DNA of 64,000 nt, from contig CANQQE010000008.1 of assembly GCA_947625935.1 (NCBI GenBank), forward strand, positions 1 through 64,000. The letters run 5' to 3'. The notes under the pieces are model-generated. The model was not told the DNA's origin. It did not search any database and saw only the letters and a program-made list of their open reading frames with translations. Both the position numbers and the translations under genes were made by a program. The first letter of the stretch is position 1, and each line of letters begins with the position of its first letter. Below, in pieces: positions 2,058 to 12,438 of the stretch. This DNA is from an uncultured Muribaculaceae bacterium. Its GTDB lineage: Bacteria; Bacteroidota; Bacteroidia; Bacteroidales; Muribaculaceae.

Positions 2058-2789
2058 CTACTTTCTCCAGGGGGTGAAACGCGATGCCAACTCCCGCATT
2101 TCCTTAGCTACGGCCCGATCAAGGCCGTCGGGGACAAAAGTGATGGTGGCCGGGTCACGACCCGTTATCATGCCATACTCCATGCAGGCGGCAAGATATG
2201 ACGCCCTTAGCGACGGATGGCAATAATCATTGTAAAGCAAGCCGGCCGCAGCCGCTCCACCCCGCTCAAACACATCGGCCACAGCATCGCCCACAGGGCA
2301 TACGCGCACACCGGGGATATCGCGGGCAACGTTCATGAAACTCTTGTGGAGAGCCTGCGAATCCTCCTTGAATCTCTCCCACTCGCCGGAATACGCCCAA
2401 TTCATCGGAATGATAATCTCAGCCTGCGGATTCGGACAGTTGGCCATAATAAACTTCTTCCAAAGTTTCACCGACTCAAGCAGCGTCTCGGGCATAGTGC
2501 GTGGCAGCGAACTCTGTTCCTGTAAAATGATGATGTCCCAAGGCTGGGAAGCGACAAGAGCCTTCGACAGCTCGTCATTGTAATGAAACAGCAACGTGCG
2601 TCCGAGCTGGGTGCGCTTATCCCATCTCATATCAAGTCCGTCGGCGGCAGCCATCGCGTTAAACATCGCCGTCTGGCCGTTTACCTCAATCAGGCTGTTG
2701 TTCAGCGAAAGTATGCGCACCGGCTTTTGAGCCGGTGCGACAAACGCTGCAAGCAGCGAAACGATAATCGCTATTGAAATCTTTCTCAT
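2058..2789 (-). CDS. secreted DUF4886 / SGNH-like hydrolase
   Basis: The protein has 243 residues with a signal peptide (cleavage probably after AFVAPA). The fold appears to be the SGNH hydrolase type used by DUF4886 proteins. The N-terminal block reads LSLNNSLIEVNG, where related proteins usually have GNS. The C-terminal block DYCHPSLRASYLAAC supplies the DxxH dyad. DUF4886 proteins are exported and often sit in Bacteroidales carbohydrate loci; a specific substrate is not known to me. This is the last gene of the leftward series that starts at 12.3 kb, nine bases after the phosphoesterase gene. The NNS in place of GNS at the nucleophile block may mean altered activity. Confidence 0.65.
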   Translation of the reverse strand: MRKISIAIIVSLLAAFVAPAQKPVRILSLNNSLIEVNGQTAMFNAMAAADGLDMRWDKRTQLGRTLLFHYNDELSKALVASQPWDIIILQEQSSLPRTMPETLLESVKLWKKFIMANCPNPQAEIIIPMNWAYSGEWERFKEDSQALHKSFMNVARDIPGVRVCPVGDAVADVFERGGAAAAGLLYNDYCHPSLRASYLAACMEYGMITGRDPATITFVPDGLDRAVAKEMRELASRFTPWRK

Positions 2790-2798
2790 GCGAATTGC

Positions 2799-3806
2799 TT
2801 ATTTCTTTTTCGATGCCGGGTTGAAGCTATACTCATCGAGGGTGGTGCCGTCGGCGAGCCTTATCCAGGTCTTGACCGCCTTGGGCGACTTCTCGTCGAG
2901 GACTATGACGCGCGCGCCGTTGGTGCCGAGATGGTTGTAAACCGTCTTGCCACCGGTGTAACGGCCATACGCGAGCAAAATGTCGCGATAGGTGATCAGG
3001 AAGTCATTGTCATGGTCATGGCCGCAGAAAACCGCCGTGATGTCCCCCTGCTCCTTCAATGCAGTGAACATCCCGGAGTTAAGCGCGCTGCAGCAGATCT
3101 GTTTGTTTTTCTCTTTCCAACGCCCCAGCAACTTGTCGGGCGCACCCTCGGCGGCAAGTTTGTACTCAGGCAGCGGTATGTGGATGAACAGCAACGCGCC
3201 GACAGGCTCGCCGCCGTTGAGGCGAGCGTAACCGTCGCTTGTTTTGCGGTACCACTCTATCTGCGGGAATGTGAGCCAGTCATATCCGCCACCGATTTTG
3301 TTGGCCGCCGATTTGTCGTGGGTATCCATGCAATACAGCACCCTGTTCACCGCACGACCGTCGTTCGAGTAGACCGGCAGCGCATAGTCAGGGCTGTCAG
3401 CATCGCCGCGGGGGGGCATCACCGAGCAATCCTGGCTCTGCAAGAGGTCGTACATTTCCGGCCGCGTCATGTCAAACTGATGGTCATGGTTGCCGAAAAT
3501 AGCGGCGTAGGGTATGCCGCGCTCAATCAAGGGAGCCGTCAGAGCCTTCAGCGAATTTTCCACCCCCTTTGAGTAGACCTGGTCGCCGGTGAAGATGACA
3601 AAGTCGGGGTCCTCGGCATCAACCACCTCCGTGATGCAATTGAGCGCTTTGTCCGAAGCCTTCTTACCCCATTTTATATGCGTATCGGTAAACTGCACGA
3701 TCTTGAATGTGCCGTCACAGTTGAATTTCAGTTTTGGCTGGGTCTGCGCTACGGAAATTGCACAAAAAAATAACAGCACTATTGCGACAAACGATATTTT
3801 TTTCAT
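2799..3806 (-). CDS. secreted calcineurin-like metallophosphoesterase
   Basis: The protein has 335 residues and begins with a signal peptide (MKKISFVAIVLLFFCAISVAQ). All metal-binding motifs of the calcineurin-like phosphoesterase family are present in order: FTDTH, GDQV, GNHDH, HIPLPE and GHDHDND. The family contains dinuclear-metal enzymes that cleave phosphomonoesters or diesters; this one would act in the periplasm or at the cell surface and resembles Dcr2/purple-acid-type phosphatases. The frame stays open to a TTG at 3818, but the ATG at 3806 places the lysines directly before the hydrophobic core and is preferred. It follows the sulfatase-modifying-type gene by 20 bases, consistent with one transcript. 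Confidence 0.85.
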   Translation of the reverse strand: MKKISFVAIVLLFFCAISVAQTQPKLKFNCDGTFKIVQFTDTHIKWGKKASDKALNCITEVVDAEDPDFVIFTGDQVYSKGVENSLKALTAPLIERGIPYAAIFGNHDHQFDMTRPEMYDLLQSQDCSVMPPRGDADSPDYALPVYSNDGRAVNRVLYCMDTHDKSAANKIGGGYDWLTFPQIEWYRKTSDGYARLNGGEPVGALLFIHIPLPEYKLAAEGAPDKLLGRWKEKNKQICCSALNSGMFTALKEQGDITAVFCGHDHDNDFLITYRDILLAYGRYTGGKTVYNHLGTNGARVIVLDEKSPKAVKTWIRLADGTTLDEYSFNPASKKK

Positions 3807-3826
3807 CTTTTTTAACAATAGTAAGG

Positions 3827-4987
3827 TTATAAATCCATCACAACTCGCAGACCGAGCGAACGCGCGCGACCGTCCTGCTCGATGCGGCGACGGTAAGCCG
3901 TGCGGAGCTGGTTGCGGTTATCGCTGTCCCATCCACCACCGCGGCGCACACGGTTCTTATTCTTGGCGGGCTTGGTGCAGAGATAGTCAACTGCCTCACC
4001 CTTAGGATAATCGTTCTTGTAATCCTCACAAAGCTCCCATACGTTTCCGCTCATGTTGTAGAGGCCAAGCTCATTGGGTTTCTTTGATTTGACATTGTGG
4101 GTGCGCCCACCGGCGTTGTCCATGAACCAGCCTACCTCGGTGACGTCATCGCTCCCTGAGTAGCGCGTCGGTGTCCCCGCCTTGTGTCCACCGCGTGCCG
4201 CATACTCCCACTCAGCTTCGGTGGGCAGGCGGAATTTCACGCCTGTGATCTGGCTCAGACGCTTGCAGAACTCCTGAGCCTCCTCCCAAGTGATGTTTTC
4301 AACCGGGAGATCATCGGTTTCATCCTTGATAATCGAGGGATTATCGGCCATCACATACTCCCAAAGAGCTTGCGACACTTCGGTCTCACCGATGTAGAAA
4401 TCGCGGGTGAAGCGCGCCCAGTGGACCGGAAGCTCATCTTCCTCGGCACTCGACTGTTCGGGAGTTGCGCCCATCTTGAACATACCGCTCTTGACGAGAA
4501 TCATGTCAAACTTCACCGGGTCACACCCTTTCTGTTTGCGGCCACCGATGGAGACACCCGCCCCCTTTGCCGGAAGCTCGATGGGGATGCGCACGGTCTT
4601 TGCCAAAGAGCCGCCATCACCGCTGGGTGCGGCGAGCGTCAGTATGTATGTGGTGTTGCCTTTCAGAGGGCCGAAATTATCATCGATACGCAAAGGAGTA
4701 TACTCAGATGTCTTGACAGTCAGCCAATTGGCACCATCCACCATATACACCCAATATTCACCGTCCTTGTATTCGCTCTTGATAATGTCGCCCTCGAAAG
4801 TGGCGTTGGGAACCGTAAGCCCCACTTTTACAAGGGCGCAAGGGTCACCGTTTAGGTCGGCCACCTGATGTACAACGGCACTGAGATCTGACGCGTCGGC
4901 CTTGAAATCAATCACGTCAAGCGACTGAGCTGACGCGACAGCACCGAAAAAGACAGTTGCAAGCAGAGATAATATCAGTTTTTTCAT
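3827..4987 (-). CDS. exported SUMF1/FGE-fold protein lacking the catalytic cysteines
   Basis: The protein has 386 residues with a signal peptide ending near residue 20. Residues about 25-150 look like a beta-rich N-terminal domain. From about residue 165 the formylglycine-generating-enzyme (SUMF1) fold is clear: GMFKMGATPE, YIGETEVSQALWEYV, PVENITWEEAQEFC, FRLPTEAEWEYAARGG, SGNVWELCEDY and RVRRGGGWDSDNRNQLRTAY. True formylglycine-generating enzymes carry two copper-binding cysteines after RGG; here those places hold D/N residues, so oxidase activity is unlikely. Similar cysteine-less domains occur in GldJ/GldK and in PvdO-like proteins, where they are structural or catalyse other reactions. 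It belongs to the leftward tubulin-like operon, 37 bases after its upstream neighbour. Confidence 0.8.
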   Translation of the reverse strand: MKKLILSLLATVFFGAVASAQSLDVIDFKADASDLSAVVHQVADLNGDPCALVKVGLTVPNATFEGDIIKSEYKDGEYWVYMVDGANWLTVKTSEYTPLRIDDNFGPLKGNTTYILTLAAPSGDGGSLAKTVRIPIELPAKGAGVSIGGRKQKGCDPVKFDMILVKSGMFKMGATPEQSSAEEDELPVHWARFTRDFYIGETEVSQALWEYVMADNPSIIKDETDDLPVENITWEEAQEFCKRLSQITGVKFRLPTEAEWEYAARGGHKAGTPTRYSGSDDVTEVGWFMDNAGGRTHNVKSKKPNELGLYNMSGNVWELCEDYKNDYPKGEAVDYLCTKPAKNKNRVRRGGGWDSDNRNQLRTAYRRRIEQDGRARSLGLRVVMDL

Positions 4988-5024
4988 AAATCAAAAATGA
5001 GAATAATATCAGATTGATTATTTT

Positions 5025-5987
5025 TTAAGGAAGTTTAAAGTCATTGAGCTTGAAAGTTTCCTCAGATATGGGTTGCCATGTGCGCACATGAATCTTGGGA
5101 GCGTCCTCGTCGGTGAAATCCCACACAAGGAACACCGTGCCGAGATCCTGATAGCTTTTAGTGGCCCATTTCTGAGTCAAGGTGACTCCATAGTACTGAG
5201 GCTTAGACGGATGCCGCACAATTCGGTAGTCATCAAACTTCACGTTGATATAGGGCTGCGTGCGGAATATGGTGTAGAGATTGCTCAGATACTGGCGTTT
5301 TGTCTTGGTGACATATTCTACCTTTGCACCGCTGTTCATCGCTATGTCGCTCTTGGCGCGCGTCATCTTGAGCTTCCCGGTGATAATCAATGCGTCATCG
5401 CTGAAAATGGCCTCCATGAACGCTTTGTTTTTGTCACGGTAGGCTTTAGCAAATTGCTCACACCAGTGGATAATCTGGAGACGCTGGTCGAGGTCGTCGA
5501 GCTGTTCGCCGGTTTTAAGCAGACCGACGTAGACGTGAGTTGGCATCGTAAAGTTGAAATCGACTATGCGGCCTGTAGGGCTGAAATCGATACTTATTTC
5601 CTGACGCGGCTCCCCGTCGTAGTTACGTCCCGACATCATCACGCCTATGTTGCGCACCTGATAGCCTCTAATCACACCGTTTTTCTTTTTCAAAGTAGTG
5701 GCAAATGTTACAATCTCGGGGTCTTCAGTGCGGAAATGGGCCTGGTTCCAGCTCATGCCTATGGTCTGAGAAGCGAGGTTGTCGATGTCAATGCCGGTGT
5801 AATTGATGGGAGAACCGGCGCTCTCGGCGGCATTGATGGCAGTCAGGAGCTTCGCCGCCTGTGTCTCTATGCGCTTGCGTGTCTGGGCAGAGCCTATACC
5901 CCCGGTGATCTCAAATGTCACATCATCCTGTGCCATCACCGGCAGGCTTAACAGGACAGCTAATGATAAAATTATTCTTTTATACAT
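5025..5987 (-). CDS. exported protein of unknown function with an NTF2-like half
   Basis: The protein has 320 residues. The start is set at the ATG at 5987; upstream only a TTG is available, and this ATG gives a normal signal peptide (MYKRIILSLAVLLSLPVMAQ). I do not recognise the N-terminal half. From about residue 170 the pattern WCEQFAKAYRDKN...FSDDALII...VYLSNL-like spacing and the closing alternating beta strands look like an NTF2/SnoaL-type alpha-beta cone, a fold used for binding small ligands or partner proteins. It lies between two other exported proteins in the tubulin-like operon, so a periplasmic partner role is plausible. The function is unknown. Confidence 0.6.
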   Translation of the reverse strand: MYKRIILSLAVLLSLPVMAQDDVTFEITGGIGSAQTRKRIETQAAKLLTAINAAESAGSPINYTGIDIDNLASQTIGMSWNQAHFRTEDPEIVTFATTLKKKNGVIRGYQVRNIGVMMSGRNYDGEPRQEISIDFSPTGRIVDFNFTMPTHVYVGLLKTGEQLDDLDQRLQIIHWCEQFAKAYRDKNKAFMEAIFSDDALIITGKLKMTRAKSDIAMNSGAKVEYVTKTKRQYLSNLYTIFRTQPYINVKFDDYRIVRHPSKPQYYGVTLTQKWATKSYQDLGTVFLVWDFTDEDAPKIHVRTWQPISEETFKLNDFKLP

Positions 5988-6023
5988 GATTTTCTTAATT
6001 ATCAAGGCTTAATGATTCTATGA

Positions 6024-6797
6024 TTAATAAAATTCAAACCACACGGCGTTGTAGCCGGAATAGTTTCCGAGACTATCATCCGAACCGTTAGCGTAGTTCT
6101 GGCGGGAGTCAGCACCGGGGCCGAGTATGGCGGTCACCGTCATTTCGGGATTGCTCTCGGCGATAATCCAGTTGCTTGCCGCCGCGTTACGGCAATCGCG
6201 CATGGTGCCATATCGTTTGACGATATTCTCTGATTTCAGTTTTGCCAGATGCTTAACCGCCGATGCAAGGTCACCCTTGCCCAAAAGCTCGTCGATAGCC
6301 TGACGGCGCAACGGGGTCAAGGCCCCTGTGCCAACCGATTGCACAGTCCGTGGAACCGGTGCGGTGTCAGCAGATGATTCCTCTGCGACATCTGACCCTG
6401 CGCTGTCATCAGAATCAATACCGCCAATCGCGGCATCCATTTCCGGTTCCTGGTAGTTGGGAACATAGACGCTGCGGTGAACGTAAGCGAACACGCGTAT
6501 GTTGTCGCCGCGTTTCATGGATTTATACTGCACACCTTCAAGTGATTCGGAAGTCACGCGGTCAACACCTGAGATTCCGTTGTCCTTGACATAATCGTTT
6601 ATGAAATTGGCCAGCAACACATTGGCCGCTTCTGTAGCCTCGGTTTCCGACGGGAGTGTCGACTCGGCATAGAAATAATTGGGCGAACGCTTGATCTCGT
6701 TTATGGCCCGTCGCGTGTCATCGTCCTGAGCCATCGCTGAGAGCGCGCCGGCCAGCATGAACGCCAGAAGGAGTATAGATTTCAAAGTTTTAGACAT
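6024..6797 (-). CDS. exported protein of unknown function
   Basis: The protein has 257 residues and starts with a signal peptide (MSKTLKSILLLAFMLAGALSAMAQ). The mature part opens with a charged helical segment, then a beta-containing region (IRVFAYVHRSVYVPN), an acidic low-complexity linker rich in D, S and A (about residues 122-150), and a C-terminal helical/beta segment that ends in WFEFY. I recognise no family. The two folded parts joined by a flexible acidic linker suggest an adaptor rather than an enzyme. It lies 36 bases upstream of the NTF2-like gene (measured to the preferred ATG of that gene) in the same leftward transcript. Confidence 0.6.
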   Translation of the reverse strand: MSKTLKSILLLAFMLAGALSAMAQDDDTRRAINEIKRSPNYFYAESTLPSETEATEAANVLLANFINDYVKDNGISGVDRVTSESLEGVQYKSMKRGDNIRVFAYVHRSVYVPNYQEPEMDAAIGGIDSDDSAGSDVAEESSADTAPVPRTVQSVGTGALTPLRRQAIDELLGKGDLASAVKHLAKLKSENIVKRYGTMRDCRNAAASNWIIAESNPEMTVTAILGPGADSRQNYANGSDDSLGNYSGYNAVWFEFY

Positions 6798-6840
6798 ATA
6801 TACACTGTGGTTTTCAGATTAAACTTCTTTATAATTCAGA

Positions 6841-7944
6841 CTATTTAAATTCATCAAATATGTTTGTGATTTTCGAGACCGGGATATAGCTGACGAGGCG
6901 CGCGTCTATCTTACCACCACGATTAATCAGGTCGCTTTCACGCATCGTAATTTTCATAGCGTGGCAATATCCCTGGCCGGGGTTTACAAACAACGACTCA
7001 CCGACAATTTCACCACCCTCAAGTTTGATAATCCCGAAATAGGGCTGGCAACCGCGGCTGATAAAATAACCCACAAGTTGCGACACCGGGACCGTGAAAT
7101 TATCCGTCTTATAGTCGTATTTGCGAAATTTGACGTTTATGTCAAACTGATTGTCGAGGTCGGTGCCTGTCAAAAGGTTAGCAACCGTGTGAGCCGGGAA
7201 ATCAAGGTCATACAGAGGTTTCATCTCACCCTCGTATTCCTCAAAATAGCGCGCCGATGTCAGTCCTTCAAGGAAGTAACTCCCGTGGGGCGTGACATAT
7301 AAGCCCAGCTCCTCGTCGAGCGTCAATTCAGGAGGCACAGCAGTGTCAAGCTGCGGACTAAACGCCTTAATCTCGGCCGGCAGACGCCGCTCGTTTTCGT
7401 CGATGTCACAACCGCTCAACAAATCATAGCTCAACGGGAACTCTATTGAATGGCTCGGCTTGGCGCCTTTGAGCCAGCTAACCCTGTAACGGCGACCGTT
7501 GATGTTGCTGACACTGACATTTAGCGTCGTGTCAACCGACAGACGCGGTAGAGTCTGCAAAGTGCAGCCGGTCAAGTTAACGTCATCTTCAAGCAACTGT
7601 TTGTTGAGCGTTTTCATGCGCTGCATCGGTAAGGCCGCTTCAAGAGCGTAACGCTCCACAAAGTCAAACGCCGGAGATTCCATAGCCCCACGCTGTGAAC
7701 GACTGAACAGTCTGTAGCCGAGATGATTGACACGGCCATAGCCATCGGTAGCAACCGCAACAGGGAGCCGGTTGTATCGAAGCGTGTCGATGCCGTCACC
7801 ACTCACCGATTTCAGTCCGATCATACGGCCCATAGCCTCGAGACGGTCAGTAGTATATGTGAGCGTATCAGCTTCCATGGCCGACAGTTGACAGACTGCC
7901 GGCCATAGAAATGACACTATTAATATTAAGCGGTTGATTTTCAT
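6841..7944 (-). CDS. exported protein of unknown function
   Basis: The protein has 367 residues with a signal peptide (MKINRLILIVSFLWPAVCQLSA). I recognise no catalytic motif. The mature chain is rich in predicted beta strands and has two cysteines that could pair (NLTGCTLQ and LSGCDIDE). The C-terminal third contains a repeated strand-turn pattern ending in KITNIFDEF. Placement directly after the zinc-ribbon gene (11 bases) and before two further exported proteins makes it a likely periplasmic component of the same machine. No function is assigned. Confidence 0.6.
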   Translation of the reverse strand: MKINRLILIVSFLWPAVCQLSAMEADTLTYTTDRLEAMGRMIGLKSVSGDGIDTLRYNRLPVAVATDGYGRVNHLGYRLFSRSQRGAMESPAFDFVERYALEAALPMQRMKTLNKQLLEDDVNLTGCTLQTLPRLSVDTTLNVSVSNINGRRYRVSWLKGAKPSHSIEFPLSYDLLSGCDIDENERRLPAEIKAFSPQLDTAVPPELTLDEELGLYVTPHGSYFLEGLTSARYFEEYEGEMKPLYDLDFPAHTVANLLTGTDLDNQFDINVKFRKYDYKTDNFTVPVSQLVGYFISRGCQPYFGIIKLEGGEIVGESLFVNPGQGYCHAMKITMRESDLINRGGKIDARLVSYIPVSKITNIFDEFK

Positions 7945-7955
7945 CTATCTGTCAA

Positions 7956-8642
7956 CTAAATGGCACCGAAGGCCATCCATGTGCGCGACCCGTCGGCACT
8001 GTGAAGCTCGCCCTGGACGAGTTTGCCATCTTTGAATTTCGCACCGACAACCATATCACCGGGGCCGGCATCGACGCTTCCACTTGTGGTTTCAAAAGTG
8101 TGGGGACGGTTGATTTTGATGGTACCAACACCTGTGGGGTAGCTACCGCTATAATAACCGTAACCGAGATTCTTGCCCGAAGCCGCGGGAGCCGATTCCT
8201 TAACCTTGGCGGGGGCGGCCTCCTTGGCCTCTTCTTTAACGCCTTCTTCCTGAACGGCTGCCTCCTCGGCGGGTGTAATCTCGATTGACGCGCTGTCTTC
8301 AACGATAAAATCGCGGGTATCGACGTCAGTTTCGGGTATGTCCATTGTCAGGCTACCGTCGGCGTCCTCTACAAGTTCCTCGCTTTCGGTCTTAGAGTCA
8401 AACCAGCCCATAGCGAAACCGCATCCCACCACAGCACCGATTGCGACAACAGCACCGATGATGATGGGTATGAGTTTATTGGCCGAACCACCTGATTTAG
8501 CGGGAGCTGCCGTAACCTCTTTCAGCGGCGCGCCGCATTCTGAACACACGAAGTCATCTTTCTCGGCCTCCTGAACAGTCTTGTTGAACGCAAGCGAGCA
8601 GTCGCCGTCGATATTCTTACAGATACCTTTAATTTTTGCCAT
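7956..8642 (-). CDS. zinc-ribbon protein with one membrane helix and an extracytoplasmic tail
   Basis: The protein has 228 residues. An N-terminal zinc-ribbon-like module holds cysteines in CKNIDGDC (about 7-14) and CSECGAPL (about 33-36). A single hydrophobic helix follows (about residues 51-75, LIPIIIGAVVAIGAVVG). After it comes an acidic, Pro/Ala/Glu-rich linker (about 80-145) and a C-terminal glycine-rich beta module (GYGYYSGSYPTGVGTI) vaguely like a MORN repeat. With no signal peptide the ribbon should be cytosolic and the tail periplasmic, so the protein could link the tubulin-like GTPase (its gene ends two bases upstream) to the exported partners. This is inference from topology and gene order. 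Confidence 0.7.
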   Translation of the reverse strand: MAKIKGICKNIDGDCSLAFNKTVQEAEKDDFVCSECGAPLKEVTAAPAKSGGSANKLIPIIIGAVVAIGAVVGCGFAMGWFDSKTESEELVEDADGSLTMDIPETDVDTRDFIVEDSASIEITPAEEAAVQEEGVKEEAKEAAPAKVKESAPAASGKNLGYGYYSGSYPTGVGTIKINRPHTFETTSGSVDAGPGDMVVGAKFKDGKLVQGELHSADGSRTWMAFGAI

Positions 8643-8644
8643 GA

Positions 8645-11600
8645 TTATAAGTCTTTTAATTCGTTTTCAAATAATTGGATACAAAGATTGCGATAAGCCT
8701 GATAGATGGGGTTGAATTCGTTGTTCTCTACCAGCGGATGAGGAAGAATCACCGTCTGCACTATGTCGACGAGCCTCTGACGCAAGGCCGCTTTCTGCTC
8801 GTTGCTTCGTGCAGCGACCTTCATCTGCGACTCAACCTCTTTTTTCAGGCGTGTGGCCTGTTCAAAGTTCTGTGCGATTGTGTCGGTGACAGTGATAATA
8901 TCGGGACCGATGCGCTCCCACTTATCGCCGAACGCGTCTTTGACCTTCATCGCGTCAAACTTCTGCCCGGTCGTGGGGTCAGAAGTCTGCTTGATAAGCC
9001 CGAGAGCATAAGCGAGCATGATGGGGCGTTTCATCATCTCCTTGACATCGCCGGTCTCCATCTCGAAAAGCGAGGGCAGCTCGTCCTTGAAGCTCTCGGT
9101 GTGTAGCACCATTCGGTTAAGCTCCTTGTCCTGAGCGTGAAGCATATCCTCATATTTCTTTTTCAGAGCCTCGACATTGGTGACATAGCGCAACGGGAAT
9201 CCGGCCTTGGCCGCAACCACTACAATCTGGTTGGGTTTGGGGTTGACGGCGACATCCTGCGAGGGGATGAAACCCGGAGCCGCTTCGGCAAACGCATTGA
9301 TGAGTTTCTGGCGGAAACCGGTGGTGTCGTCGGGATATTCGGGCAGACACAACTGTATGAGCGATTCCATGCCTCCGCCGGCGTTTGAGAACTTCATTGC
9401 AACCTGTTTCTGGTTGAACTGCAGGAATGTCTTTGCCGAATCGACAAGCGACTTGACGAAGTTCTGAAGTTTTTCATCGGTGTTATATTCCTGTTTGATT
9501 TTCTCAAGTATGTTCACACCGACCATTTTCTTTGTGGCGTCCTCGGCGGCTGTGTTAATCATAGCCGTGTCGGCGTTTTTCTGGCACACGTCGATGACCA
9601 CGTCGACTGTTGTGTCGAAGTCGGCGTGCTCAAACAGCGCGCCAAACGAGCGTTCGCCGTCCTCGCCAAGCATCTCGACAAGTTTCTGTCTGATGGCACC
9701 GGCATTTGTTTTCTGTGTGTCCTGATTAACCACGCAGCTTTTTGTGAACCGCTCCACAAGGTCGTGGTCATATTTCTTCAGCGTCATGTCGTCGGCGATA
9801 TCTTCCTTGCGGCACTTGGAACCGGCCTGTCGGGTTACCTCCTCAAGTATGTCGTTGAGCATATGTCGATAGGAGTTTACGCCGTCGAGCATCTTGGTTA
9901 GCTGCTCTATGATGGCCTGCAACAGGACTGTGGCGAAATTGTAAGCCTCCACCCAAGTAGCGGCGGTGTAGAAGTCGCAAGTCGCCGTCTTGTAGGCACT
10001 CAGTGTCTTCTTTGACGCACCCGTGATTGCATCGCGGAGCCAACCGATGTTGTCCCACTCGACATTGGCCGCCTTGATGGCTGCGTTAGCGCTCTCCATC
10101 TCCTCTTGCTTGGTTGAGATGCGCTCTTTGAAATCGGTGATGCGACGCTCGCAGTTTGAAATGAGCAGTCGGGTGAACATCTCTATGTTGAGCAGGCTGC
10201 GTTCGCCGCTGCGCCACTCGTTGAAGAGCATTGTCTCGATATGGTTCCTAATGAACTTGGCGTAGGCAGTGCGCTCCTGACGCTGCAAGTCGTAGAATTT
10301 CTTGACACCGAGCGCACGGAAATTCTTCTCGTAGTAGTCGCGGCAGTCGTCGGAGAACAGGCGCAACCAACTCTTTTTGTCGGCGTTGGTCTGCGCATCG
10401 TCGGCAAACATCTGAGTGCGCGACTCCCAGGTTTTGGTGAGATCCATCCACCGTTTAGACTGCGGGGTCTCGATTATCGGGGTTGAAAGGGTGAGATGGC
10501 TGACAGAAAGCAACCATTTGGGATAGTTTTTCTTATCTTCCACTTCTGACGACAGCCCCACTCCTGCCTCCTCCATGGAGCATTCGCCATAGCCCACACC
10601 CTCCTGCCAGTTGTTGAACTGGAGCTGCAAGGCGGCCTGACGGGCGAAGTTGTAGGTTACATATTCCTCAATTTCAGTCTCGGGGTATTCGACGCGTTTG
10701 ATACCGAAACCCATGAACTTGCGTGAACGGGTGGGATTATTGGCCTGGTCGTACTCATCGCCCGCACCATCGTTCTCACACCCCATCAGGTGGGCCATCT
10801 GCCCTGTCTCATGCTGACCTGACGCACCATTAGCGGTCATGGCCGGGGCCACGATTTTCTGGAACATGAAATCGGCCACTGCAGCAGGGAGCGCGTTGGT
10901 GATGTCAAGAATTTTTCCGGATTCGTTGATATTTGAATAGAGGTAGGCCGCATCGAAAGCGTTTTGGTCGCCCAGCAGACGCTGCACCTGCCCTGTGAAA
11001 TTATCTTTTTGACCTGAAATATCAAGCGGATGATATACACGCACGCTCATAGCGTTAAGCTCACAAAGCGCGGCATATCCGTTTGACTGATAGAATCCGG
11101 CGTCATGATTGTGGTAGACGACATTCATTTCAGGCACATAGAGATAGAGCAGCAGCTTATATTTCAAACCACCTTCCACAGGGGCGAACTGTTTGCGAAT
11201 CTGCGCTATCACATCGACTATAGAACCTGAGCCTGTTCCGCCGGCAAGTCCGGCACATACATGGAATGTCACGTCGGCGTCGCCTGAGGTATTGGTCAGG
11301 GCGTTGACCGAAAAGCCGAGACGATGAGCGAAGTTATTGTTGTCACTGACGCTCATGTTGTTGGCCAGCAGGGTGCGGCCGAGGCGTCGACGCTGACCGC
11401 CGATTCCGGCGGTCACCAACGGTCCGAGCCGCGAGGTCATCAGCCTCACATCTTCGGGATTCAGGAATCCGTTGATGCCCGGGTACATCTGTAGATTTTG
11501 AAACATCGTCGCACTGATGCCGTGAATCGACACCTTTTGCGCCTCACTCAGATGCACCGGTTTTCCGAGAGCTTTCCAGCCCGTGCGGTCGTTGAGGTCA

Positions 11601-11746
11601 GCCGGCGACGAGTCCACATATAAGTAACTGATATTGATATTTCCGGTAGGTTCGTTGGATCGGAATTCTTCGTAAATGCGTTTGCGAAGCTCGCGGAGCA
11701 CTTTTCCGCCTGTTCCTCCAAGCCCGATAATCAGATGATTAGCCAT
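8645..11746 (-). CDS. tubulin/FtsZ-like GTPase of the Tubulin_2 type
   Basis: The protein has 1033 residues. The N terminus (IIGLGGTGGKVLRELRKRI) is the first nucleotide-binding loop of tubulin-like proteins. Near residue 168 the sequence CAGLAGGTGSGSIVDVI contains the tubulin/FtsZ signature GGTGSG. This pattern fits the large bacterial tubulin-like family (Pfam Tubulin_2, related to the FtsZ-like families that Makarova and Koonin proposed to be involved in membrane remodelling). The GTPase domain is followed by about 600 residues of mainly helical sequence with coiled-coil-like stretches, far longer than FtsZ (about 400). There is no signal peptide or membrane helix, so it is cytosolic. It is translated just upstream of the zinc-ribbon gene (two bases apart) and 49 bases after the membrane-protein gene. 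Family assignment is firm; cellular role is not known. Confidence 0.85.
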   Translation of the reverse strand: MANHLIIGLGGTGGKVLRELRKRIYEEFRSNEPTGNINISYLYVDSSPADLNDRTGWKALGKPVHLSEAQKVSIHGISATMFQNLQMYPGINGFLNPEDVRLMTSRLGPLVTAGIGGQRRRLGRTLLANNMSVSDNNNFAHRLGFSVNALTNTSGDADVTFHVCAGLAGGTGSGSIVDVIAQIRKQFAPVEGGLKYKLLLYLYVPEMNVVYHNHDAGFYQSNGYAALCELNAMSVRVYHPLDISGQKDNFTGQVQRLLGDQNAFDAAYLYSNINESGKILDITNALPAAVADFMFQKIVAPAMTANGASGQHETGQMAHLMGCENDGAGDEYDQANNPTRSRKFMGFGIKRVEYPETEIEEYVTYNFARQAALQLQFNNWQEGVGYGECSMEEAGVGLSSEVEDKKNYPKWLLSVSHLTLSTPIIETPQSKRWMDLTKTWESRTQMFADDAQTNADKKSWLRLFSDDCRDYYEKNFRALGVKKFYDLQRQERTAYAKFIRNHIETMLFNEWRSGERSLLNIEMFTRLLISNCERRITDFKERISTKQEEMESANAAIKAANVEWDNIGWLRDAITGASKKTLSAYKTATCDFYTAATWVEAYNFATVLLQAIIEQLTKMLDGVNSYRHMLNDILEEVTRQAGSKCRKEDIADDMTLKKYDHDLVERFTKSCVVNQDTQKTNAGAIRQKLVEMLGEDGERSFGALFEHADFDTTVDVVIDVCQKNADTAMINTAAEDATKKMVGVNILEKIKQEYNTDEKLQNFVKSLVDSAKTFLQFNQKQVAMKFSNAGGGMESLIQLCLPEYPDDTTGFRQKLINAFAEAAPGFIPSQDVAVNPKPNQIVVVAAKAGFPLRYVTNVEALKKKYEDMLHAQDKELNRMVLHTESFKDELPSLFEMETGDVKEMMKRPIMLAYALGLIKQTSDPTTGQKFDAMKVKDAFGDKWERIGPDIITVTDTIAQNFEQATRLKKEVESQMKVAARSNEQKAALRQRLVDIVQTVILPHPLVENNEFNPIYQAYRNLCIQLFENELKDL

Positions 11747-11795
11747 TGTGTGTTATGATATTTGATTTTTAATAATTTATCTGCAATGTGTTTTT

Positions 11796-12323
11796 TCAGA
11801 AGTCATCGACATTGTTTTCATAGTGTCTTGAGCGAACCGGCGCGACACGCCGTCGCTGAGTAGCCGCCTGCCTGCATCCGATAACCAATGCCAACACAGA
11901 AAAAACCGCCATCCATATCACCATTTTCCATGCGGTCGATGTCAGAGATGACGAAAGCTCCTCCAAAGCAGCCACTACGGTATCGGTCGCGGCAGATGAA
12001 TATATCTCAATACCACCAAGATAAGTCGCAATCCACGATGGAATATCAATCGCTCCGCCGGCGGCGACAACGTCAATAACCCCATTCACAGCCGAGTTTA
12101 ACTTGATTGCGCCTACCGCCACAGCCGCAAGGATCAAAGTGATCAATCCATACGCAACCAGCCCAAGCCACCCTAATGCCGTTATATCAGCCTTGACATA
12201 TAAACCTCTGATAATAAAAACTATAGATAAGGTCAGGCCAATAGCGACGAGTAGCCCCCACAGCACGCTTGTAGCTGCATTGGCCAGCACATCAAAAAAA
12301 ATCATCGATATTGTACCGATCAT
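11796..12323 (-). CDS. small multi-pass membrane protein, first gene of the tubulin-like operon
   Basis: The protein has 175 residues. Hydrophobic segments lie at about residues 7-35, 48-72 and 130-150, and a basic C-terminal tail (RQAATQRRRVAPVRSRHYEN) should face the cytosol. The segment between the second and third helices is Ala/Ile/Ser rich and could be periplasmic. The frame is open to a TTG at 12353, but that codon lies inside the promoter, so the ATG at 12323 is chosen. I recognise no family. As the leading gene of an operon with a tubulin-like GTPase it is a candidate membrane anchor or channel. Confidence 0.65.
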   Translation of the reverse strand: MIGTISMIFFDVLANAATSVLWGLLVAIGLTLSIVFIIRGLYVKADITALGWLGLVAYGLITLILAAVAVGAIKLNSAVNGVIDVVAAGGAIDIPSWIATYLGGIEIYSSAATDTVVAALEELSSSLTSTAWKMVIWMAVFSVLALVIGCRQAATQRRRVAPVRSRHYENNVDDF

Positions 12324-12350
12324 GCTCTGTGTTTTGAAAGAGTTTGTTGG

Positions 12351-12382
12351 CAAATTTAAAAATAAAATCGGCTAACGGCAAA
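12351..12382 (-). promoter_or_regulatory. promoter of the tubulin-like operon
   Basis: On the minus strand TTTG (12382-12379) is followed after exactly 20 bases by TAAATTTG (12358-12351), an exact fit to TTTG-N19-21-TAnnTTTG, the sigma-ABfr consensus of Bacteroidota. Transcription should start near 12344, which rules out the TTG start at 12353 and supports the ATG at 12323. Confidence 0.75.
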
Positions 12383-12395
12383 TAAATCACCATAA

Positions 12396-12438
12396 AAACA
12401 CGGTTCCAAAGCATTATAGTTGCTTTGGAACCGTGTTT
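12396..12438 (-). terminator. rho-independent terminator of the aspT-aspD operon
   Basis: An 18-bp perfect stem (12396-12413 with 12421-12438) with a 7-base loop follows the end of aspD. Read leftward it is followed by a T run (12395-12391 region). It separates the aspartate operon from the tubulin-like operon promoter. Confidence 0.85.

Follow-up and report, generated by a model that had tools for sequence, protein, structure and literature searches.

A run of nine genes around a Tubulin_2 (FtsZl1-type) GTPase was analysed in a stretch of 64,000 nucleotides from an uncultured Muribaculaceae bacterium (GCA_947625935.1, contig CANQQE010000008.1, positions 1 to 64,000), called the window below. 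The conserved unit of this run is a six-gene core, g1-g6, and the nine-gene operon is not one evolutionary unit. Within the core, the GTPase (g2) and a zinc-ribbon/helix protein (g3) form the constant pair, and the envelope half also occurs with a kinase or a TIR domain in place of tubulin. The cluster is read from its sequence as what may be a trans-envelope coupling module with interchangeable cytosolic parts, a reading held with about even confidence. The nine genes are located in the window as follows:

11796..12323, minus strand: g1, a 175-residue membrane protein with three hydrophobic regions (open reading frame, hydropathy)
8645..11746, minus strand: g2, a Tubulin_2 (FtsZl1-type) GTPase of 1033 residues (PF13809, E 1.2e-53)
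7956..8642, minus strand: g3, a zinc ribbon, one helix and a MORN-like domain (alignment, hydropathy, structure-profile match)
6841..7944, minus strand: g4, an exported core protein (open reading frame, signal-like N-terminus, recurring neighbour)
6024..6797, minus strand: g5, an exported core protein, weakly LPP20-like (LPP20 structure match, E 0.031)
5025..5987, minus strand: g6, an exported core protein with an NTF2-like C-terminal half (Cds6_C and DUF4440 matches in relatives)
3827..4987, minus strand: g7, an exported FGE-fold protein, accessory (PF03781, E 1.8e-44)
2799..3806, minus strand: g8, an exported metallophosphoesterase, accessory (PF00149, E 5e-15)
2058..2789, minus strand: g9, an exported DUF4886 protein (PF16227, E 4.3e-11)

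In total, 30 long-type tubulin loci were collected, 29 of them annotated with profiles grown from the window proteins, plus locus L166. The core was counted in those 18 Bacteroidales loci whose contigs extend 4.4 kb or more downstream. Contigs were too short in L034, L035, L052, L053, L056, L067, L068, and L090, and g4-g6 were lacking in L039, L040, L140, and L166, so these were left out; the duplicate loci L036, L041, L042, and L043 were dropped, and L069-L072 (weak Pfam matches, about 555 residues) were not counted because the GTPase profile did not match them. The genes g3, g4, g5, and g6 have the same direction in all 18 loci; other genes precede g6 in L058, and a small open reading frame separates g3 from g4 in L093. 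In 16 of the 18, g1 precedes the GTPase gene by no more than 75 bases; of the other two, L032, from the cultured carrier Dysgonomonas alginatilytica, has a g1-like gene downstream, and in L095 none was found. A sequence-only reading of the window had proposed a single nine-gene unit. This stands for the core, since g3-g6 recur in every testable locus and the core neighbours do not vary freely, but it fails for the remaining genes: the FGE gene (9/18) and the phosphoesterase gene (7/18) were observed only in the family of the window, and the DUF4886 gene (1/18) only in the window itself. The nine FGE loci fall among ten loci of that family, L046 having none. Around other Tubulin_2 types (695-1085 residues), none of 18 loci contained g1 or g3-g6. 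The ratios of non-synonymous to synonymous substitution (dN/dS) in three pairs of relatives, one of which is near saturation at synonymous sites, indicated strongly purifying selection on the GTPase (0.03-0.05) and g6 (0.02-0.03), and weaker constraint on g3, g4, and g5 (0.08-0.35).

The zinc-ribbon protein is encoded next after the GTPase in all 27 loci with at least 300 bases downstream. These include two Zoogloea loci, L140 (G935, from another family of the phylum), and a Paraburkholderia plasmid, all without g4-g6, and a zinc-ribbon profile built without these four loci recovers them with E 1e-12 to 9e-7. Four Cys are invariant in the ribbon of the g3 family. Since the ribbon adjoins the GTPase even where g4-g6 are missing, g3 is probably the membrane anchor, its ribbon docking the GTPase to the membrane. 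Beyond the helix, the proteins of these four loci differ from g3: Zoogloea and L140 have a periplasmic-binding-protein and OmpA domain, Paraburkholderia another tail. VWA, GTPase, and OmpA partners had been reported as missing from the operon, and Pfam indeed found none in the nine proteins, but the ribbon of g3 is common to the OmpA-bearing partner of Zoogloea and G935, so some connection to the OmpA theme of the literature is present. The MORN-like domain of g3 would lie in the periplasm. This putative assignment comes from the g3-family (A5) profile, which matches MORN1 structures with E 2.5e-4; Pfam MORN gave no match in the window g3, and among MORN-bearing proteins of other loci it was over the cut-off in L138, at 22.4 of 22.5 bits in L142, and at 18.1 bits in L126.

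Searching with g6 gave relatives in 51 of the 199 family genomes and in 49 of the 393 from the order. Many of these consist of the C-terminal half alone, as part of proteins of roughly 600 residues, a kind found in many Bacteroidales genomes. Thirty-four further neighbourhoods were sorted, most, not all, chosen for a full-length g6 outside the known tubulin loci. Eight have a Ser/Thr kinase-helix protein upstream on the strand of g4/g6, six of these with a MORN match (L124, L125, L126, L127, L130, and L142), and three, from two families of the order, have a TIR-helix-MORN protein (L138:11978-12952, L146:8129-8935, and L147:9710-10864); L146 and L147 gave no g4 match. The Pfam kinase score was over the cut-off in 8/8, and that of TIR_2 in L138 and L147, with 27.6 of 28 bits in L146. 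The DFG motif is present in all eight kinases, the catalytic-loop pattern was found in six, and no CxxC occurs in the N-termini of the 11 kinase/TIR proteins. Six neighbourhoods have an exported protein upstream, namely five related proteins of 695-735 residues, of which the one scanned (L135) is Sel1-type by Pfam, and a caspase-profile match in L129. Two (L132 and L148) start with a zinc-ribbon/MORN protein at a contig end, the GTPase being found at another contig end of the genome; four are cut by contig ends (L141, L149, L150, and L154); and five hold only the C-terminal half of g6 (L139, L151, L152, L153, and L155), three of them with a weaker kinase-profile match three genes downstream. 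Three others (L134, L136, and L143), L140, and the uvrC loci L122 and L123 complete the set. The sequence-only reading had described a trans-envelope version with a cytosolic filament former, a membrane linker, and periplasmic or surface effectors: the GTPase, the linker, and the exported partners do cluster, but the envelope half is found with kinases and TIR domains as well. At L139:5802-10162, a 591-residue fusion of g5 with the C-terminal half of g6 lies together with a 127-residue gene and a 726-residue FGE protein; this fusion supports a contact between g5 and g6.

The GTPase and g6 showed different histories. The window GTPase is 62-64% identical to those of L031, L037, and L038 and 49% to that of L032, and only 23-24% to those of L054, L059, L060, L061, and L063 from its own family. 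The window g6 is 48-51% identical to the latter five and only 35-37% to L031 and L032. For the 17 common loci, the GTPase data reject the same-family grouping (log-likelihood difference 775, p < 1e-49) and the g6 data reject the GTPase grouping (169, p < 1e-49); these p-values should not be read literally, as the groups were picked after the identities were seen and LG+G4 was used with some long GTPase branches, but the differences are very large despite this. The g6 most similar to that of the window (78%) comes from two congeneric species, which carry g4-g8 beside uvrC and no GTPase. The two trees conflict strongly, so the halves were recombined, and both the cluster and its cytosolic half have moved.

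The tubulin module is a patchy, accessory system. The source genome of 3.69 Mb contains one match each to Tubulin_2 and g4, the window being contig C8, and its own FtsZ_C gene is located elsewhere, on contig C4. Tubulin_2 of any type was detected in 34 of the 199 family genomes (the window's own included), 29 of them over the cut-off. The window GTPase matched one of four genus genomes (its own) and 16 of the 393 order genomes, eight over most of the length and eight in short weak stretches, and its family profile matched 7 of 395 phylum genomes, three full-length. Of the nine proteins, only g2 was searched against phage and plasmid records; it had no phage match and one plasmid match, a 1.09-Mb Paraburkholderia plasmid, and carriage of g2 by phages or plasmids was rejected.

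The Pfam scores of the window proteins reached 183.1 bits for Tubulin_2 in g2 (cut-off 27), 152.8 for FGE-sulfatase in g7, 57 for Metallophos in g8, and 43 for DUF4886 in g9; all matches of g3 and g6 were below the cut-offs, and g1, g4, and g5 had none at E 0.1. Hydrophobic regions number three in g1, one in g3, and none in g2, and every one of g4-g9 has an N-terminal signal-like region. The GGTGSG GTP-binding loop of g2 (G169-G174) is invariant in 24/24 aligned GTPases. No FtsZ_C match was obtained for g2 with Pfam, and among solved structures its profile reached FtsZ only at E 0.86, with weaker-looking helical matches at E 0.03. The relatives of g6 gave Cds6_C in 9/17 (best E 1.9e-6) and DUF4440 in 12/17 (best E 0.013) at E up to 1. 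The Pfam and solved-structure searches returned nothing firm for g4 and g5; the g5 profile also matched designed pentatricopeptide and solenoid proteins (E down to 2.5e-7), but these matches span only 25-30 positions and were disregarded. The FGE fold is present in g7, and its last 40 residues, read by eye, contain no Cys; this is the region where the active-site cysteine pair of the formylglycine-generating enzyme lies.

As the sequence-only reading had it, and as the open reading frame positions and the pattern match confirm, nine leftward genes with gaps of 2-49 bases stand behind one exact promoter-like site. They occupy 12323-2058, with intergenic gaps of 49, 2, 11, 43, 18, 37, 8, and 9 bases when the longest starts are used and g1 is counted from its ATG at 12323; the alternative ATG starts 5987 (g6) and 3806 (g8) change two gaps to 36 and 20 bases. 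Two elements precede the operon:

12351..12382, minus strand: promoter-like site TTTG-N20-TAnnTTTG (exact pattern match)
12398..12436, minus strand: 16-base-pair perfect hairpin, then TTTTATGG (arms checked; not flagged by the terminator scan)

The pattern TTTG-N20-TAnnTTTG, which we take to be the Bacteroidetes promoter consensus, has four exact matches in the window against 0.45 expected, and one of them fronts the operon. The hairpin is probably the end of the upstream gene's transcript. On the minus strand, the terminator scan found one site where g9 ends (2071-2050) and a weak five-pair site within g5 (6435-6422); such sites are rarer than in shuffles (5 vs. 14.5), so that the scan decides little. 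A BspA-type leucine-rich-repeat protein (240-1907; LRR_5, 218 bits) adjoins the operon.

Several loci showed individual features. An extra short g6-like gene precedes the full g6 at L037:15750-16268, at L060:3564-4013, and, with 194 residues, in L063. An in-frame TAG interrupts the GTPase gene at L092:9435-12563, where the adjoining g3-g6 are open. L042 (G005:C25, the same as L036) holds a second GTPase copy of its genome, which is cut by the contig end and accompanied by a g1 of its own; this GTPase shares 67-68% identity with that of the window. In L127:235-9899 and L126:4649-13448, FHA, caspase-like, PP2C, and kinase-MORN genes run together with g4-g6, and the gene before these clusters looks LytTR-like by eye. 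In L151, L152, L153, and L155, which represent four genomes of the family, a gene for 1165-1186 residues, one for about 300, the C-terminal half of g6, and a g7-like protein occur together. A second Tubulin_2 type of about 926 residues follows a gene for 570-640 residues (L044:7411-15252 and L097:5517-12202), which gave a weak VWA match in both loci scanned. The gene after it in L044 (1085 residues) codes for a protein with a papain-like protease domain; most other loci have a similarly sized gene at this position. By size alone, this type also occurs in L045, L047, L048, L050, L051, L057, and L062.

In the model suggested by gene content, conservation, domain swaps, conflicting trees, and selection, g2 would sit at the cytosolic side of the inner membrane, where the zinc ribbon of g3, and perhaps also the basic tail of g1, would hold it, and the MORN domain of g3, in the periplasm, would touch a complex formed there by g4, g5, and g6. 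The window's version of this complex may be decorated by the FGE-fold protein, the phosphoesterase, and the DUF4886 protein. GTP would drive the assembly or disassembly of g2, perhaps as a polymer at the membrane, and the helix of the MORN protein would most likely couple this to the state of the periplasmic complex; in other genomes, a kinase or a TIR domain takes the place of g2. As the same envelope proteins occur with kinase- or TIR-helix-MORN proteins, the most likely role of the cytosolic part is to regulate an envelope sensor or assembly or to serve as its output. We infer the locations, contacts, GTP-dependent polymerisation, and signalling direction from sequence.

A number of findings weigh against this coupling model. 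In locus L035, whose contig is shorter, g5 is missing between g4 and g6. The kinases of L128 and L144 have no MORN match, and a further gene lies between kinase and g4 in L128. An exported repeat protein is the upstream gene in six loci, and L122 and L123, from two species of the window's genus, hold g4-g8 beside uvrC with no adjoining cytosolic partner; consequently, the envelope part may work without a cytosolic one. Nothing of this kind is present at the uvrC gene of the window genome. In a 42-row g6 tree, the labels changed 8 times for tubulin (shuffled mean 13.4), 3 for kinase (7.5), and 2 for exported TPR (5.8), and 0 of 500 shuffles were as low for each; this clustering of the labels means that few exchanges took place, although tubulin and kinase each need more than one. 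The g6 proteins of L138 (TIR) and L144 (kinase) form long branches of unsure place. Finally, the signalling interpretation depends on the nature of the swapped domains. A more specific version of the model, in which MORN-g4-g5-g6 is a common socket in Bacteroidales where a GTPase polymer, a kinase, or a TIR domain plugs in via a single helix, might make the cytoskeletal protein an output or input of a transmembrane signalling or immune receptor; it is offered tentatively.

Signalling is more likely than a machine for membrane remodelling driven by tubulin only. For such a machine, filaments of g2 would deform the inner membrane, g3 and g1 would anchor them, and the exported proteins would shape the envelope or attach to it. 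The available text of Makarova and Koonin 2010 (PMC2875224) proposes this role for Tubulin_2/FtsZl1 with VWA, GTPase, and OmpA partners, whose genes are frequent, not universal, in FtsZl1 clusters; its family alignment includes a Bacteroides member. The constancy of the membrane-anchored neighbour, as well as the anchors of Zoogloea and G935 that end in periplasmic-binding-protein-OmpA domains, would fit the proposal. However, the same envelope genes are found with kinases, with TIR domains, or alone, which a tubulin-driven machine leaves unexplained. A reviewer in the same paper doubted that a cytosolic protein remodels membranes with periplasmic partners and suggested transport or signalling instead, and the authors themselves left filament formation undecided. 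Remodelling is regarded as unlikely.

A defence or conflict system is also improbable. In it, the envelope complex would sense an attack on the envelope and release a cytosolic effector, whether tubulin assembly, a kinase, or a TIR domain. The TIR domains in three loci, the PP2C, FHA, and exported caspase-like genes in the kinase loci L126 and L127, the patchy distribution, and the faster evolution of g3, g4, and g5 (dN/dS 0.08-0.35) than of g2 and g6 are in line with this. Moreover, the available part of Kaur 2020 (PMC7159879) describes one tubulin and one kinase/PP2C theme of the GAP1-N2 GTPase-centric systems and classes these as conflict systems. PADLOC, however, assigned none of the nine proteins to a family at E < 0.001 (best E 0.0087), so a known defence system was rejected; g2 had no match in phage records and a single one in plasmid records, and purifying selection on g6 and g7 is strong (dN/dS 0.02-0.06). 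An apparatus that assembles outer-membrane or surface proteins or controls their quality, and that the GTPase would only position in the cell, is very unlikely: GldK is the best NCBIfam match of the FGE-fold protein, the exported protein encoded after g6 contains PEGA domains in L095 and, in L032, L033, and L091, gave weak matches of TPR or CarboxypepD-like type, and the envelope genes are able to stand alone, but the GldK match lies far under the cut-off (86 of 350 bits), by which a component of the type IX secretion system was rejected, and no secretion or Bam family was found with Pfam and NCBIfam among the nine window proteins.

In the literature searched, which left most subscription papers outside, no kinase/TIR/MORN or zinc-ribbon tubulin cluster was found described. 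The gene set was likewise not found, and part of its context may be tabulated in the supplement of PMC2875224. No tested function was found in that literature for the Tubulin_2 family, proposed in 2010; a 2023 survey, in its available part, separates Tubulin_2 proteins from the FtsZ/tubulin family proper. The constant anchor-like neighbour and the defined periplasmic partners provide directly testable pairs. That a kinase or TIR domain takes the place of tubulin on one and the same set of envelope proteins suggests that transmembrane signalling can be a role of tubulin-family polymers, and the better-understood kinase and TIR versions offer a way to learn what the module senses.

FtsZ is attached to the membrane by the anchors ZipA, FtsA, and SepF. 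The window system resembles this arrangement in its cytosolic tubulin-family GTPase beside a membrane-anchored partner and differs from it in that g2 lacks FtsZ_C, a zinc ribbon replaces the known anchors, and the system is accessory and patchy. Bacterial transmembrane Ser/Thr kinases carry extracytoplasmic sensor domains, and the six kinase-helix-MORN proteins are comparable to them, whereas the window has a zinc ribbon and a separate GTPase in the kinase position. With the FtsZl1 clusters, as far as the available text of PMC2875224 describes them, the window shares the GTPase family, membrane-linked partners, and distinctness from the genome's own FtsZ; unlike them, it has a zinc-ribbon-helix-MORN partner together with g1, g4, g5, and g6, and no VWA, GTPase, or OmpA domain. 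The GAP1-N2 systems, in the available part of PMC7159879, show the same alternation of tubulin with kinase/PP2C, as well as zinc ribbons, helices, and extracytoplasmic NTF2, PEGA, and beta domains. In contrast to them, the nine window proteins gave no P-loop GTPase or VWA match with Pfam, GAP1-N2 not being searched by name, and the tubulin/kinase section of Kaur 2020 (PMC7159879) mentions neither a TIR variant nor exported proteins resembling g4-g6. To the extent of that text, GAP1-N2 is a close precedent for the tubulin-kinase alternation, with different core genes.

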